Assembly (NCBI GenBank): GCA_905479065.1
Contig: CAJQLB010000002.1
Location: 62,001-126,000, forward strand
Length of the DNA stretch: 64,000 nucleotides
Direction of reading: 5' to 3'
Origin: an uncultured Flavobacteriaceae bacterium
Lineage (GTDB): Bacteria; Bacteroidota; Bacteroidia; Flavobacteriales; Flavobacteriaceae
Numbering within the stretch: the stretch's first letter is position 1; each line of letters opens with the position of its first letter. A program made the position numbers and the translations under genes. The notes beneath the pieces are model-generated. The model ran no database searches and was not told the DNA's origin. It saw only the letters and a list, made by a program, of their open reading frames with translations. This document shows, piece after piece, positions 53,237-58,549 of this stretch.

Positions 53237-54844
53237 TTACTCTTTTAAAATTTTAAAAGAAGTAGTGTTCAAATCTTCAGTTTGTATAATTAAAAAATAA
53301 ATACCACTCGCGAGATCTTGAAGATTGATACGATTAAATTGGCTAACTGATTTTTCAATTATCATTTTACCCATCACATCAACTACATACATTTGAGCTG
53401 TTTCAAGATTATTTGGTAACCTTACATCTAAAAACACTTTAACGGGGTTCGAGGAAACAACAATGTTATCTTGATTATTATTTTGATTGCTGAGTGCAGT
53501 CACCAATGAGGCACCAAAATCTGGAATTCCATAACCCAACAAATAATCCGGAAGTGTAAATTGATTACTAGATTCCCGAACGAGTTGCATTATTTGTGCA
53601 TTCGTAAAGTCCGGAAGTGCTTGCATAAGGCATGCCAATGCCCCTGCCATAATCGGAGAGCTAAACGAAGTCCCACTATTTTGAATAATAAGATCATTAG
53701 GACCAATCACAAACGTTGACTTACCCCTAGCTACCACATCTGGTTTTTGAGTTGGCTGTATAGCACTTCCAACTGAACTAAAAGAGGCATAAATTCCATT
53801 TTCATCAACAGCGCCAATACTAAAAACTCCGGCAGCATCTGCGGGTGCATTTACACCAGAAGCTCCTGAATTACCTGCAGAATTCACTAATAAAAGACCT
53901 TTTTCAAAAGCTATATTAGCCCCTCTTGTTATGAAGGCTGAATTCCCGTCTAAATCCGAACTTGAATGACTGTAATTGGGATTATCGTAACCTTTATAGC
54001 CTAGCGATGTATTGATGATATCTACACCTAGGCTGTCGGCTCGCTCAGCTGCTTCAACCCAATAACTTTCTTCAACAGGAGTTTCTTGTTCAGCCTCTTC
54101 AGTTCTAAAAACATAATACGAGGCATCAGGTGCTGTACCCACAAATTGATTGTCAACATATCCTGCCATGGTACTCAATACTTTCGTGCCATGATTATTG
54201 CCGGTGTAATCATAAATATTTGCAGTTCTGTTGATAAAATCATAACCACCAAATAAACGGCCTGCATCTCTTATTCGTTCAAAAGCATTCATCGTATTGA
54301 CATTGGGAAAGCCTGAATCTAAAACTGCAATGATGATGCCATCTCCTGTGTAATCCAGGACATGTAGGTCATCAACATTAATCATGTCTATTTGATTTTG
54401 CGTATTACCATAATCGAAATTTACGAACGTCTCTTCAATTTCAAACTTATTATTTGAATGATTAATTTGATTTGAAATCATATTCATACTGTCATCAGCA
54501 AAATCAATTGAAGCTACGAAGTCAAAATTTAAAAGTTCATTGATATCAGATTGACTTCCTATAACATGAACAGCATTGAACCATTTCGACTTAGCTTTTA
54601 CCTCAATCCCTGATGATAATTCAATCTGCGACTTGTAAGATTCATTTAAAGGAACGTCGCGCTCATCTATGCTTATATTATGTTTTGTTTTTCGGTCAAT
54701 AGCTCTAGACGTAAGAATTGTCAGTGGATTATTTATAGATGCAGTAACATTTTCCTTATCCGTGAAATAAATCCAAGCATGTTCCTGGGCGAGCAAAACA
54801 CTCGGGACTTTTAAAAGAATTAATACTATTAATATCTTTTTCAT
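53237..54844 (-). CDS. Subtilase (S8) with type IX secretion sorting domain
   Basis: Secreted serine protease of 535 residues. It has a signal peptide (1-20, ending LLAQE), an N-terminal inhibitor-like region, and the catalytic domain with Asp176 (IIAVLDSG), His218 (GNNHGTKV) and Ser393 (GTSFSSPIMAG), plus oxyanion Asn325 in SAGNSG. The last 80 residues (PVKVFLDVRLP through GIYFLII) form a C-terminal sorting domain of the T9SS type A kind, ending SFKILKE. It should be carried across the outer membrane and attached or released. It lies between mnmA and the nitronate monooxygenase-like gene. Confidence 0.95.
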   Translation of the reverse strand: MKKILIVLILLKVPSVLLAQEHAWIYFTDKENVTASINNPLTILTSRAIDRKTKHNISIDERDVPLNESYKSQIELSSGIEVKAKSKWFNAVHVIGSQSDINELLNFDFVASIDFADDSMNMISNQINHSNNKFEIEETFVNFDYGNTQNQIDMINVDDLHVLDYTGDGIIIAVLDSGFPNVNTMNAFERIRDAGRLFGGYDFINRTANIYDYTGNNHGTKVLSTMAGYVDNQFVGTAPDASYYVFRTEEAEQETPVEESYWVEAAERADSLGVDIINTSLGYKGYDNPNYSHSSSDLDGNSAFITRGANIAFEKGLLLVNSAGNSGASGVNAPADAAGVFSIGAVDENGIYASFSSVGSAIQPTQKPDVVARGKSTFVIGPNDLIIQNSGTSFSSPIMAGALACLMQALPDFTNAQIMQLVRESSNQFTLPDYLLGYGIPDFGASLVTALSNQNNNQDNIVVSSNPVKVFLDVRLPNNLETAQMYVVDVMGKMIIEKSVSQFNRINLQDLASGIYFLIIQTEDLNTTSFKILKE

Positions 54845-54868
54845 TTTTTTTGCTTTAGTTACTGCAAT

Positions 54869-56056
54869 TTAAGCAATTACACCTGAACCAACTAATTCAT
54901 TGTGAAGGTACCACGCTACAAATTGGCCCTCTGTAATCGCAGATTGCTCTGTTTCAAATGAAACATATAAACCATGGTCAACCTTGAAAATTTGAGCTTT
55001 TTGTAACGGTTGTCTGTATCTAATGCGTGCCATGACGTGCAAATGATCTCCTTTATTTAATCGAAGATCTTCTCGGACCCAATGCAATTCCTTGTTCTCA
55101 ACAAATAGTGTTGATTTGAACAAGCCAGGATGATTATTTCCGCGACCAACATAGATAATATTGTCGTTTACATCTGTTTCTATAACATATAAAGGTTGTG
55201 TGGTTCCTCCAACACCGAGACCTTTACGTTGACCTTTGGTAAAATAGTGAGCACCTTGATGTTTACCAACAATTATTCCATCAGACTGAGAATATATAAT
55301 CTTGCGTGATTTAGAAATAAGCGCTTTCTCTATTGATTGCCAGCCTTTCTTTTGATTTTGATAGCCTTTGTAATTAGTTGGGATTTCTACGATAACCCCT
55401 TCCTTTGGTTTTAATTTTTGCTGTAAAAATTCTGGAAGTTTTACTTTTCCTATGAAACACAATCCTTGAGAATCTCTCTTTTCTGCTGTGATTAAATTTT
55501 CTTTTTGAGCGATACGTCGAACTTCAGATTTTAAAAGACTTCCTAGTGGAAATAATGTTTTAGACAATTGGATTTGTGACAGTTGACACAAAAAGTAAGA
55601 TTGATCTTTAGTGTCGTCCTGACCAGCAAACAGTTGATATATTTGTACGCCGTTTTTTTTAAAAGATTTTTTTCTACAATAATGACCAGTTGCAACATAA
55701 TCAGCACCAAGATTTAAAGCAATATTCATAAAAACGTCAAATTTTATTTCTCGATTACAAAGAATATCCGGATTTGGAGTTCGACCAAGTGCATATTCGT
55801 TAAACATATAATCGACAATGCGTTTCTTATATTCTTTGCTTAGGTCAACTGTCTGAAAAGGTATGCCTAATTTTTCGGCCACAAGCATGGCATCATTACT
55901 ATCTTCTAACCAAGGACATTCATTTGAAATGGTGACAGAATCATCATGCCAATTTTTCATAAACAATCCGATAACATGATAACCTTGCTCCTTTAACAAA
56001 AAGGCTGCAACACTTGAATCTACACCGCCAGATAAACCTACGACAACCGTTTTCAT
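54869..56056 (-). CDS. mnmA: tRNA 2-thiouridylase MnmA
   Basis: Adds sulfur to U34 of tRNA Lys, Glu and Gln. The 395-residue protein has the P-loop SGGVDSS at residues 9-15, the two catalytic cysteines Cys100 ([12 protein letters not shown]) and Cys200 ([11 protein letters not shown]), [11 protein letters not shown] and the late [13 protein letters not shown]. It is of normal length. The -7 element TATCTTTG lies 17 bases before the ATG. The subtilase gene follows after 24 bases. Confidence 0.97.
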
Positions 56057-56073
56057 TGCTTTTTTATAAGTTA

Positions 56074-56081
56074 CAAAGATA
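56074..56081 (-). promoter_or_regulatory. -7 element for mnmA
   Basis: Minus-strand TATCTTTG, perfect TAnnTTTG, 17 bases before the mnmA ATG. No -33 TTG at the usual spacing. Confidence 0.55.
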
Positions 56082-56143
56082 CATGTTTAACTCTTTAAGA
56101 AAGGCTAATTTTCATGTTCATGTCAAAAATTTTAAGATTTATT

Positions 56144-56216
56144 TTGTTTAAGTTTAACATAACATTATTAAACAATAATGAGATTTGTTTAATCTTTGTA
56201 TCAATAATTTAAACAA
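56144..56216. promoter_or_regulatory. Two tandem inverted-repeat units upstream of the fasciclin gene
   Basis: Two 32-bp units, 56144-56175 and 56185-56216, each consist of TTGTTTAA, a 16-base spacer and TTAAACAA. They are nine bases apart, so the period is 41 bp. All four arms are exact. The second unit ends eight bases before the fasciclin ATG, and its spacer contains TAATCTTTG, a near match (one base longer) to the -7 element. This looks like a pair of operator sites covering the promoter, though AT-rich composition lowers the certainty. Confidence 0.5.
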
Positions 56217-56224
56217 AAATAAAA

Positions 56225-57601
56225 ATGAAAACAACACACTATTTTAAACAATTAGCCCTCGTAGTAACCATATCATGTTTTGCATTTTCTTGTAATAATG
56301 ACGATGATGGATACAGCGCACCTGAAGAGCCTCAATCAACAACTATTACGGCTCTTGCAAGCGAATCAAATGACTTAAGTATTTTAGTTTCAGCGCTACA
56401 AGCAGCTGGTTTAGACTCAACACTTGATTCTGAAGGGTCGTTTACCGTTTTTGCTCCTACAAACGCTGCTTTTGAAAACTTTTTAGCTGATAACAATTTC
56501 AGTGGTTTATCAGACATTCCAGTAGACGTTTTGACACAGGTTTTATTAAACCACGTGATAGCTGGTGAGGTGTTTTCAACGTCGTTAACCACGAGCTATG
56601 GTAACACTTTAGCAACAAAAAACGGTAGTGGAGAAAACTTGAGTATATATATAGATACGTCAAACGGAGTTACGTTAAATGGTGTAAGTAATGTTTCAGT
56701 TGCAGATGTCGATGCCTCAAATGGAGTAATCCATATAGTAGATGCTGTAATTGGTTTACCTAATATTGTTGATCACGCGGTTGCAAATCCAAATTTAACA
56801 AGTTTAGTAGGAGCATTGACCGCTGATGGTAATACAACATTCACGGGATTATTATCAACTCCAGGAGATTTCACCGTTTTTGCCCCAACAAATGATGCTT
56901 TTGCTTCATTCACAACTACTAATGATGTTAATAATGTCTTAGCAAACCATGTTATTCCCGGTGCTACAGCGATTTCAACGTCCTTAACAAATGCATATGT
57001 TAACACCGCAGCTACATTAAATGGAACAGATACGCCTTTGAGCATGTACATAAACGTTGATAGTGGTGTAACATTAAATGGAGGATCTGCTGTCATAGCT
57101 GCAGATATTATTGCAACTAATGGTGTCATTCATGTTGTGGACGCGGTCATCGATTTACCGACAATCGCTACTTTCGCAACTACCAACAGTGCCTTATCCA
57201 TTTTAGTGGATGCATTAGCTTACGCTGATACAGGAAATCCAACCGTGCCTTATATCGATACAGTGTCTAATCCAACAGCAGGACCATTTACAGTATTTGC
57301 ACCAACAAATGATGCTTTTGTTGACTTGTTAGGTGAATTAGAAATAAGCGCATTGACAGATTTAACACCAGCACAAATTGATACAGTTTTACTTTACCAC
57401 ATAGTGGGTGCAAATGTACAATCAAGCCAATTACAAACTGGAGTAGTTTCTACCTTAGGTGGTGACATAACAGCAGATGCAACAGCATTTACGTTAACAG
57501 ATCCAAACGACCGTGTAAGTAATATAATTACAGCACTAGTAGATATACAAGCAGCTAATGGTGTGGTACACGTTATAGATAAAGTTATTTTAAATAATTA
57601 A
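56225..57601 (+). CDS. Surface lipoprotein with three fasciclin (FAS1) domains
   Basis: Protein of 458 residues with lipobox FAFSCNNDDDG (Cys22). The acid-rich residues after Cys resemble the signal that sends Bacteroidota lipoproteins to the cell surface. Three FAS1 domains follow at about 38-172, 178-312 and 316-455, each with FTVFAPTNxAF and NGVIH/NGVVHV(V/I)D. The first two are especially alike (GVTLNG, NGVIH(I/V)VDAVI), pointing to an internal duplication. FAS1 domains mediate adhesion, so an adhesive or matrix role is likely. An unusual pair of inverted repeats lies upstream. Confidence 0.93.
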   Translation: MKTTHYFKQLALVVTISCFAFSCNNDDDGYSAPEEPQSTTITALASESNDLSILVSALQAAGLDSTLDSEGSFTVFAPTNAAFENFLADNNFSGLSDIPVDVLTQVLLNHVIAGEVFSTSLTTSYGNTLATKNGSGENLSIYIDTSNGVTLNGVSNVSVADVDASNGVIHIVDAVIGLPNIVDHAVANPNLTSLVGALTADGNTTFTGLLSTPGDFTVFAPTNDAFASFTTTNDVNNVLANHVIPGATAISTSLTNAYVNTAATLNGTDTPLSMYINVDSGVTLNGGSAVIAADIIATNGVIHVVDAVIDLPTIATFATTNSALSILVDALAYADTGNPTVPYIDTVSNPTAGPFTVFAPTNDAFVDLLGELEISALTDLTPAQIDTVLLYHIVGANVQSSQLQTGVVSTLGGDITADATAFTLTDPNDRVSNIITALVDIQAANGVVHVIDKVILNN

Positions 57602-57654
57602 GATTTTTCGAGTAAATATTGGTTAGTAATAACTCGAATAGATTGGTTGTTAGG

Positions 57655-57708
57655 TATAGGCTTGAAGAAGCCTATATTAAAAAGCTCCTTAGGAAACTAA
57701 GGAGCTTT
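57655..57708. terminator. Convergent terminator region between fasciclin and MORN-type genes
   Basis: Two hairpins lie in series: TATAGGCTT/AAGCCTATA with a GAAG loop (57655-57676), without a T tract, and a 12-bp perfect stem AAAGCTCCTTAG/CTAAGGAGCTTT with a GAAA loop (57681-57708) bounded by A- and T-rich DNA on both sides. The second is the functional candidate and could stop transcription from either direction. Confidence 0.75.
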
Positions 57709-57715
57709 ATTTATA

Positions 57716-58423
57716 TTATTTCTTGGGTTTTTGAAATTTCGAATAATAGGTAAAATCTTTCTTATTTATTAATTTGTTGTTGTTGTAATATAACCAAACA
57801 CCTGTTTTTTTACCTTTTTTAAACTGTCCCTCAGACAGTAATTCTCCCTTTCCATTATAAGATTTCGAAAGGCCGTGTAATGTATCATTGGCATAATTTA
57901 AATGTTTTAAAACAACTCCCTTTAAAGAAAAAATTTCTGAAACACCTTCTTTTTTACCATTTAGAAAATAAGTTTTCTCTGCTAACACCCCATTATCATA
58001 ATAAACTAGTTGGTCTCCTTGTAAAAGTCCCCTATTGTCATATGTCTCTGAAGTCATGATTTTAGAAGAGTTTTTATGATAGTAAATCCACTTCCCAATG
58101 TGAATTTTACCAATCATAGACCCTTCACTAATTAATTTTCCTCTTGAAGTATAAAATTTCACTGCAACTTGGCTCGTCTTATCGTGAAAAAGCTTAGTTG
58201 CTGAGAGAACACTTTTATTATTGTAAAGTTTATAAAATTTAAACTCTCCAGTCTCTCTGCCATGCTCAAATTGACCTTCATAGCGTACTTGATTAGTCCC
58301 TTTGAATGTTTTTCTCCAAACACCGTGACGCTTATTATCGTTGTCAAATTGATTAATTTCTTGGGAATTAACAGTGATGCTCATAAAGCATATTACACCT
58401 ATAACAAATCGGAAGGATAACAT
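57716..58423 (-). CDS. Exported MORN-like repeat protein (YwqK type)
   Basis: Secreted protein of 235 residues with signal peptide (ending VNSQE). At least six MORN_2-type repeats follow, each near YYxNGxLxxE...GxKxGxW, for example HGVWRKTFKGTNQVRYEGQF, IGKWIYYHKN and KTGVWLYYNNNKL. Database names call such proteins YwqK family antitoxins, but no toxin gene is adjacent and the protein is exported, so that label should not be read as function. Role unknown; it may be a surface or periplasmic repeat protein. Confidence 0.85.
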   Translation of the reverse strand: MLSFRFVIGVICFMSITVNSQEINQFDNDNKRHGVWRKTFKGTNQVRYEGQFEHGRETGEFKFYKLYNNKSVLSATKLFHDKTSQVAVKFYTSRGKLISEGSMIGKIHIGKWIYYHKNSSKIMTSETYDNRGLLQGDQLVYYDNGVLAEKTYFLNGKKEGVSEIFSLKGVVLKHLNYANDTLHGLSKSYNGKGELLSEGQFKKGKKTGVWLYYNNNKLINKKDFTYYSKFQKPKK

Positions 58424-58549
58424 TTAAATCAAGGTTTAATCAAACGTTTAACACTTTTACACACGTAAATATATTAATAAATATATCTACTAACATCTAT
58501 TACTTCAAACATTCAACAAAAGCTGTGATAAGCAAAAAATATGTATTAT

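Follow-up and report, generated by a model that had tools for sequence, protein, structure and literature searches.

Architecture of the locus

The region described here lies within the window, the term used for the whole 64,000-nucleotide stretch of DNA that was analysed. It comprises a gene for a protein with fasciclin domains, a divergent neighbour and two candidate operator units between them (Table 1). Pfam places the target gene in the fasciclin family, and its product was judged by eye to be secreted or lipoprotein-like. The divergent neighbour probably lies outside the regulon presented below.

Table 1. Features of the fasciclin promoter region, in window coordinates.
Feature	Position	Strand	Description
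Operator unit 1 (candidate)	56144..56175	+	TTGTTTAA-N16-TTAAACAA, inverted repeat; kept in congeners G002 and G003
Operator unit 2 (candidate)	56185..56216	+	TTGTTTAA-N16-TTAAACAA; 41 bp downstream of unit 1; 8 bases between its end and the ATG; exact in G003, one mismatch in G002
Near -7 promoter element	56191..56198	+	AATCTTTG; lies within unit 2 and differs from TAnnTTTG at one base
Target gene, protein with three fasciclin domains	56225..57601	+	458 aa; Pfam PF02469 in three stretches, E 1.1e-67
Divergent neighbour ORF, tRNA 2-thiouridylase (MnmA/TrmU)-like	54869..56056	-	Named from its sequence
-7-like element	56074-56081	-	TATCTTTG; outside the operator, on the strand of the divergent neighbour

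Each unit consists of two exact octamers, TTGTTTAA (56144-56151 and 56185-56192) and TTAAACAA (56168-56175 and 56209-56216), held apart by 16 bases in both cases; a single site spans 32 bp and the double unit 73 bp, and the ATG of the fasciclin gene is at 56225. The preliminary description had reported four octamers with a 16-base spacer in each pair, a period of 41 bp, eight bases up to the ATG and a near -7 element inside the second unit, and every one of these was recovered exactly. The -7 element was recognised by its likeness to TAnnTTTG, which we take to be the Bacteroidota -7 consensus here and in the analysis of site positions. The octamer alone was not enriched, with 11 copies seen in the whole window against 12.7 expected; as its frequency is ordinary, the arrangement is the special feature. 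A fifth copy, located within the coding region (56244-56251), was not conserved in the two congeners. Both units were found in these two genomes with the same 41-bp period, one of the G002 units carrying one mismatch, and the conservation looked for upstream of orthologous fasciclin genes is therefore present.

Occurrence of the motif across genomes

The window's own genome (2.4 Mb in 48 contigs, 98% complete) contained three exact TTGTTTAA-N16-TTAAACAA units and no match to the reversed control, in agreement with the earlier remark that equal spacers in both units are not easily explained by composition alone. The third unit was located on another contig, 13 bp before another fasciclin gene. 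Fasciclin domains were detected in just two genes of this genome (four domain matches in a Pfam search, E up to 1e-5); all three exact units are directly upstream of fasciclin genes, and both fasciclin genes have one.

A wider search was performed on a set of 60 genomes, namely the window's own genome and 59 relatives. By hand tally, 52 exact N16 units were present in 25 genomes, and the reversed control in 0 genomes. A scan of spacer lengths from 6 to 26 in the same genomes gave 73 units (hand tally), of which 52 had a spacer of 16 and 21 were distributed over the other 20 lengths; reversed controls over all of these spacers numbered 19, also tallied by hand. In a sample of the class, 159 genomes evenly drawn, exact units occurred in 56 genomes and a control match in 3. 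Units with a 17-base spacer were seen at plausible places, before the second fasciclin gene of G012 (L077 6131-6163) and before an ECF sigma gene in G104 (L197 3034-3066), and a 17-bp spacer may be tolerated.

The pattern with two mismatches was close to background in the own genome (18 sites versus 14 reversed controls), and the analysis was therefore based on exact and one-mismatch sites; the sole exception is a single two-mismatch site before a folE operon, which was counted as plausible only. The chance rate for one-mismatch sites was approximately 0.7 per genome (23 controls in 35 genomes).

The surroundings were examined for 117 exact sites, comprising the 52 sites of the 60-genome set and 65 sites in 60 stretches chosen among the sites listed for the class sample. 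Copies at random positions would have spoken against a regulatory element, and a single site among the 117 was inside a gene (L212 of genome G139, which is without the MerR gene discussed below). Chance occurrence in AT-rich intergenic DNA, with which the ordinary octamer frequency in the window and the two-mismatch counts in the own genome would agree, has a negligible probability in our judgement and was rejected on the exact-copy counts (3 vs 0 in the own genome and 52 vs 0 in the 60 genomes) and the spacer scan, and the location of 116 of the 117 sites outside any ORF longer than 120 aa likewise speaks against it.

Genes next to the sites

The nearest labelled gene was assigned to each of the 117 sites by BLAST to one reference per gene. 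ECF sigma and fasciclin genes were the most frequent (25 sites each), followed by crtI (13), SRPBCC (6), TetR_C_23 (5) and folE (3). The 141-aa family, merR, crtZ, TspO, photolyase, DUF2805 and NAD/DUF2867 accounted for one or two sites each, while 28 sites were without a match to the reference set and 2 without a near gene. In both loci that were read in detail (L040 and L083), the ECF sigma gene was followed by crtI. Among the 28 unmatched sites, seven genes resembled DUF4397 secreted proteins by eye (two confirmed with Pfam) and three resembled 6-pyruvoyl-tetrahydropterin synthase by eye (one confirmed with Pfam). The DUF4397-like loci belong to other families of the class (L154, L157, L193, L204, L206, L207 and L208), with the operator preceding the gene; perhaps these secreted proteins have there the role that fasciclin proteins have here.

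The one-mismatch sites of the own genome were located before crtI-crtB-crtZ-crtY, before a TetR-ABC1 kinase operon, and before an operon of DUF2452, DUF2805 and two photolyase/cryptochrome-type genes. Three more had less obvious targets (C8:53839, C13:29790 and C27:177534). The two-mismatch site mentioned above precedes an operon of folE, glutathione peroxidase, TspO and the start of a photolyase gene, the last assigned by eye. A unit with at most one mismatch was present within 250 bp upstream of 12 of 19 fasciclin genes, and the other seven had 4-6 mismatches; these 19 upstream regions represent part of the fasciclin genes of eight genomes picked for having the motif, one wrong ORF having been dropped.

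The site-bearing genes look like a regulon for light and photo-oxidative stress. There is good support for a coherent regulon, marked by the element in numerous genomes of Bacteroidota, whose targets comprise fasciclin genes as well as those for carotenoids, photorepair and, in other genomes, proteorhodopsin.

Position of the sites relative to promoters and start codons

For this analysis, 109 of the 117 sites were oriented to their nearest gene; the other eight were dropped, namely the in-gene site and sites that had a cut flank or lacked a gene within 120 bp. TAnnTTTG was present in or at the edge of 55 of the oriented sites, compared to 30.3 (sd 1.5) with shuffled spacers. The main registers of the -7 box were position 17 and position -4 (20 sites each) and position 6 (7 sites), the -4 register being partly a product of the octamer itself and unaffected by the spacer shuffle. 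In the position-17 register the right octamer directly follows the box. The -7 box and the start region are thus often covered by the element, a placement in keeping with a repressor.

Of the 13 crtI sites, eleven were within one base of the ATG or overlapped the start region, and two were at distances of 4 and 9 bp; in the own genome the site directly adjoins the crtI ATG. Sites at the crtI start were observed at L042, L047, L051, L055, L059, L061, L084, L086, L173, L174 and L191, and in the own genome at L088 4001-4035. Where the right half-site has TAnnTTTG just within it, the crtI transcript would have no leader or a very short one.

Tandem pairs and proteorhodopsin loci

Partners with up to two mismatches were found within 250 bp in 25 pairs, and 13 of these were at 40-44 bp. 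The GTDB genome collection was scanned for two exact units separated by 1-31 bp, a pattern that limits the distances to 33-63, and 80 of the 112 stretches obtained were listed. The 80 distances fell at 33-35 (12 pairs), 41-46 (42), 53-57 (18) and 62-63 (6), with 2 elsewhere. This phasing gave a Rayleigh nR2 of 27 at a period of 10-10.5 bp, over the 80 listed pairs with related genomes included. Helically phased distances would fit cooperative binding on one face of the DNA, as such binding would need. The preliminary description had proposed a double operator for a regulator, possibly cooperative at about four helical turns; the comparative evidence (the coherent regulon and the phased pairs) favours this proposal, with binding itself a prediction, and the 41 bp of the window falls within the main distance cluster and fits the general rule.

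The targets of the 80 listed tandem loci were 44 ECF sigma genes, 8 fasciclin genes and 6 others, and 22 were without a reference match. The titles of the stretches are, as we read them, Bacteroidota names except one. The exception, L242, is a tandem-operator contig titled as a Verrucomicrobia MAG, which could be due to misbinning or transfer.

A gene with a proteorhodopsin motif adjoined 17 of the 80 listed tandem loci (L217, L219, L225, L227, L229, L241, L251, L255, L260, L263, L264, L267, L269, L277, L282, L287 and L292), and the proteorhodopsin link is based mainly on these 17, themselves found by the tandem-site search. In 14 of the 17, a blh-like (beta-carotene dioxygenase) start was seen by eye on the other side. 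Pfam analysis of six proteins from these loci identified Bac_rhodopsin in three and beta-carotene dioxygenase in three. This suggests that light-driven proton pumping belongs to the same regulon in the genomes of these 17 loci.

The own genome has proteorhodopsin and blh as divergent genes (L090 4944-6674, on contig C8), the blh product being a beta-carotene dioxygenase by Pfam. The gap between them held only a three-mismatch unit, with a shuffle fraction of 0.03. A rhodopsin gene was present in 10 of the 60 genomes, and in this set a site with up to two mismatches upstream of it was found only in G055 (one mismatch, 165 bp upstream) and G013 (two sites with two mismatches).

The candidate regulator

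The own crtI site lies between crtI and the gene of P0001, a 300-aa MerR protein, which ends 22 bp before the site. P0001 has an N-terminal MerR winged-helix domain (PF13411, E 4e-13) and a C-terminal CarH-type B12-binding domain (B12-binding_2, PF02607, E 6.8e-8); a separate Rossmann B12-binding domain was not reported by Pfam. Its best matches among sequences of solved structure were 3whp and the CarH of Thermus thermophilus (5c8d). The AlphaFold model had a pLDDT of 90, and in a Foldseek comparison with the PDB, CarH chains filled the top 12 places (best E 4.6e-14), with about 18% identity to T. thermophilus CarH in the fold alignment.

The conservation of the light-sensing pocket was assessed in 30 proteins, namely P0001 itself and, from its 41 matches in the 60-genome set, the best ones. 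The Wx9EH capping motif, WQTNTISPAHEH in P0001, was kept in 29 of the 30 proteins, P0001 counted, and ExHxxG in 26. In an alignment of 29 sequences, again including P0001, GxxW and the E of EH were present in 29, and the H of EH, the axial-type His and the P of GxxxP in 28 each. The G of GxxH was found in 5 of the 29 sequences and replaced by N in 19, among them P0001. The published light-response signature of SignatureFinder consists of GxxW, EH, GxxH and GxxxP in the portion of the source available (PMC11796333), and P0001 has three of the four motifs complete, with N for G in GxxH. It scored 64.5 bits against a cut-off of 400 for the NCBIfam CarH equivalog NF052513. P0001 is a divergent CarH relative below the equivalog cut-off. 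A CarH-like protein with Asn for the axial His was observed in G049 (L122), a genome with two exact operators; this homologue may be a B12-independent member, and part of the P0001-like family may make no use of light through B12.

The distribution of this protein follows that of the motif. In the 60-genome set, a P0001-like MerR protein was encoded by 24 of the 25 genomes with the motif and by 16 of the remaining 35 (Fisher 2.7e-5); in the class sample the figures were 54 of 56 motif genomes and 39 of 103 without the exact motif (Fisher 2.1e-14), both values being descriptive as species are not independent. The motif genome of the 60-genome set in which the MerR gene went undetected is the congener G002 (93% complete). 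The two are also physically linked, as 34 of the 117 sites were within 700 bp of a P0001-like MerR gene. Of the 35 relatives that have no exact unit, 16 carry the protein and had 31 one-mismatch units versus 13 controls, and the 19 lacking it had 10 versus 10; this group difference was not significant (p 0.16, 35 genomes). Taken as a whole, a MerR protein with a CarH-like B12 domain is strongly indicated as the regulator of the sites.

Proposed mechanism and alternative explanations

We consider it probable that the units are operators of a Bacteroidota branch of CarH/LitR-type MerR repressors, repressing in the dark and released by light. From the comparative evidence we infer binding by a P0001-type protein, repression and relief by light through B12. 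Each TTGTTTAA-N16-TTAAACAA unit would be an operator for such a repressor, which in the own genome would be P0001. In the dark, the AdoCbl-bound protein would occupy the inverted half-sites covering the -7 box and the start, and RNA polymerase would be blocked. Light would break the cobalt-carbon bond and release the protein, and the carotenoid, photorepair, antioxidant and surface (fasciclin) genes would be switched on. In a 41-bp pair, two protein units on the same face of the DNA might give tighter or more switch-like repression.

It is also conceivable that the CarH-like MerR protein binds the site in response to a signal other than light, such as B12 supply or oxidative stress, or that it acts as an activator. 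The replacement of the GxxH glycine in most homologues and the loss of the axial His in G049 are in line with this, and so is a one-mismatch site of the own genome that has a cobalamin riboswitch and transport genes as neighbours. At that locus (L092 3807-4032, own C13:29596-29821), the operator is 6 bases upstream of the riboswitch, which is followed by the ORF of a TonB receptor; ABC importer genes run in the divergent direction. Among 30 riboswitch loci (30 of the matches), however, 2 had a site with at most two mismatches and 1 a site with three, the best in far stretches of the same loci having four mismatches. Besides the own site, a similar one, with two mismatches, was seen only in G014 among these loci. 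In 17 other site loci and in window positions 54000-58500 no riboswitch was detected at the gathering score, and a general link between riboswitch and site was rejected on the 2 of 30 loci. Light-protection genes and proteorhodopsin are among the targets, and most homologues retain the Trp, Glu, His and axial His of the light pocket, both of which argue for light as the signal. Many MerR proteins are activators, and activating members sit in the promoter spacer; the operators here, over the -7 box and start, have a different placement. A signal other than light, or an activator role, is therefore unlikely in our estimation.

A second explanation assigns the site to the TetR_C_23 protein P0002, whose own operon has a site, and makes the MerR gene merely another target. 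TetR-family proteins bind inverted repeats, a TetR_C_23 gene is the nearest labelled one at 5 of the 117 sites, and the protein co-occurs with the motif (19 of 25 versus 9 of 35 genomes, Fisher 1.9e-4). It is not present wherever the motif is, being absent from 6 of the 25 motif genomes, including G022 with four sites, whereas the MerR protein is absent from 1 of the 25; the closeness of 34 of the 117 sites to the MerR gene also speaks against P0002. As its co-occurrence is weaker than that of the MerR protein, P0002 was rejected as the binder, and we regard this explanation as quite improbable.

The frequency of ECF sigma genes beside the sites (25 of 117, and 44 of the 80 tandem loci) might suggest recognition by an ECF sigma factor, or a promoter element instead of an operator. 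The symmetric element occupies at least three registers with respect to the -7 box, merR and crtI have no sigma gene between them in the own crt locus, and a fixed 16-bp symmetric spacing with phased tandems is not a promoter feature. This reading was rejected on geometry and is very improbable.

Significance of the proposed regulon

A broader reading is that a B12-based light regulon is widespread in Bacteroidota, has its own operator architecture (inverted with N16, phased tandems) and also switches on proteorhodopsin and blh; we judge the chances of this to be about even. Many light-harvesting flavobacteria would then time the building of their pump by a B12 photoreceptor that senses light on its own. 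Flavobacterial phototrophy would depend on vitamin supply from other organisms, coupling ocean phototrophy to B12. The proposal gives a specific and testable answer to how light protection and proteorhodopsin are induced in flavobacteria, in which the protein is named, the 32-bp site exact and the genes listed. It would further extend CarH-type control to a large Bacteroidota group, add a second operator geometry (inverted, N16, tandem-phased) to this photoreceptor family, and provide the fasciclin surface proteins with a regulatory context, the light response.

In the literature searched, which for the most part comprised papers other than subscription ones, no description of the motif or of a CarH-type Bacteroidota regulon was found. 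The octamer does appear in the available part of PMC6692529 as a stretch of a listed metagenomic gene sequence, a chance match.

Comparison with known systems

Several light-related systems were compared with the one proposed here. In Chryseobacterium lacus, also a member of the Bacteroidota, light raises the expression of crt genes and of a lipocalin-family gene, and the authors detected neither a car nor a lit operon and did not name the regulator (PMC7064467); light-induced crt genes in a Bacteroidota species are the point of likeness. The accessible text on Nonlabens spongiae places a MerR gene in the carotenoid cluster and gives no functional comment (PMC11855829). MliR of Bizionia is a different MerR-like protein, one that has no effector domain (PMC9478572), and it was rejected as the regulator acting here.

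A close parallel is CarH of Thermus thermophilus and Bacillus megaterium, which belongs to the LitR/CarH group of AdoCbl photoreceptor repressors. As set out in the part of the review at hand, AdoCbl-loaded CarH tetramers bind over the promoter in the dark, and light destroys both chromophore and tetramer (PMC8156234). P0001 shares with CarH the MerR domain and CarH-like B12 domain, Trp-x9-Glu-His and the axial-type His, and the candidate system shares carotenoid targets and an operator over the promoter. The half-site TTAAACAA contains the TnnACA core of the CarH consensus, nAnnTnnACAn in the same portion of PMC8156234. The operators described there are 11-bp direct repeats, whereas the candidate operator has inverted half-sites with a 16-bp spacer and TnnACA in each; tandem 11-bp direct repeats were not found in it. 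By analogy, the site would be CarH-operator-like in its presumed logic and not a member in architecture. P0001 also differs in having Asn for Gly in GxxH and in its low identity to CarH noted above, and the targets here include fasciclin, TetR-ABC1 and SRPBCC genes and, in other genomes, proteorhodopsin and blh.

A comparison can also be made with the PB promoter of Myxococcus xanthus, where, in the passages available from PMC8156234, an operator of ∼55 bp is bound cooperatively by two CarA dimers and overlaps the promoter. The CarA/CarH operator at PB and the 73-bp double unit described here are alike in being large and overlapping the promoter. The PB operator differs in that it overlaps the -35 region, and proteorhodopsin and fasciclin targets are not named in that part of PMC8156234.
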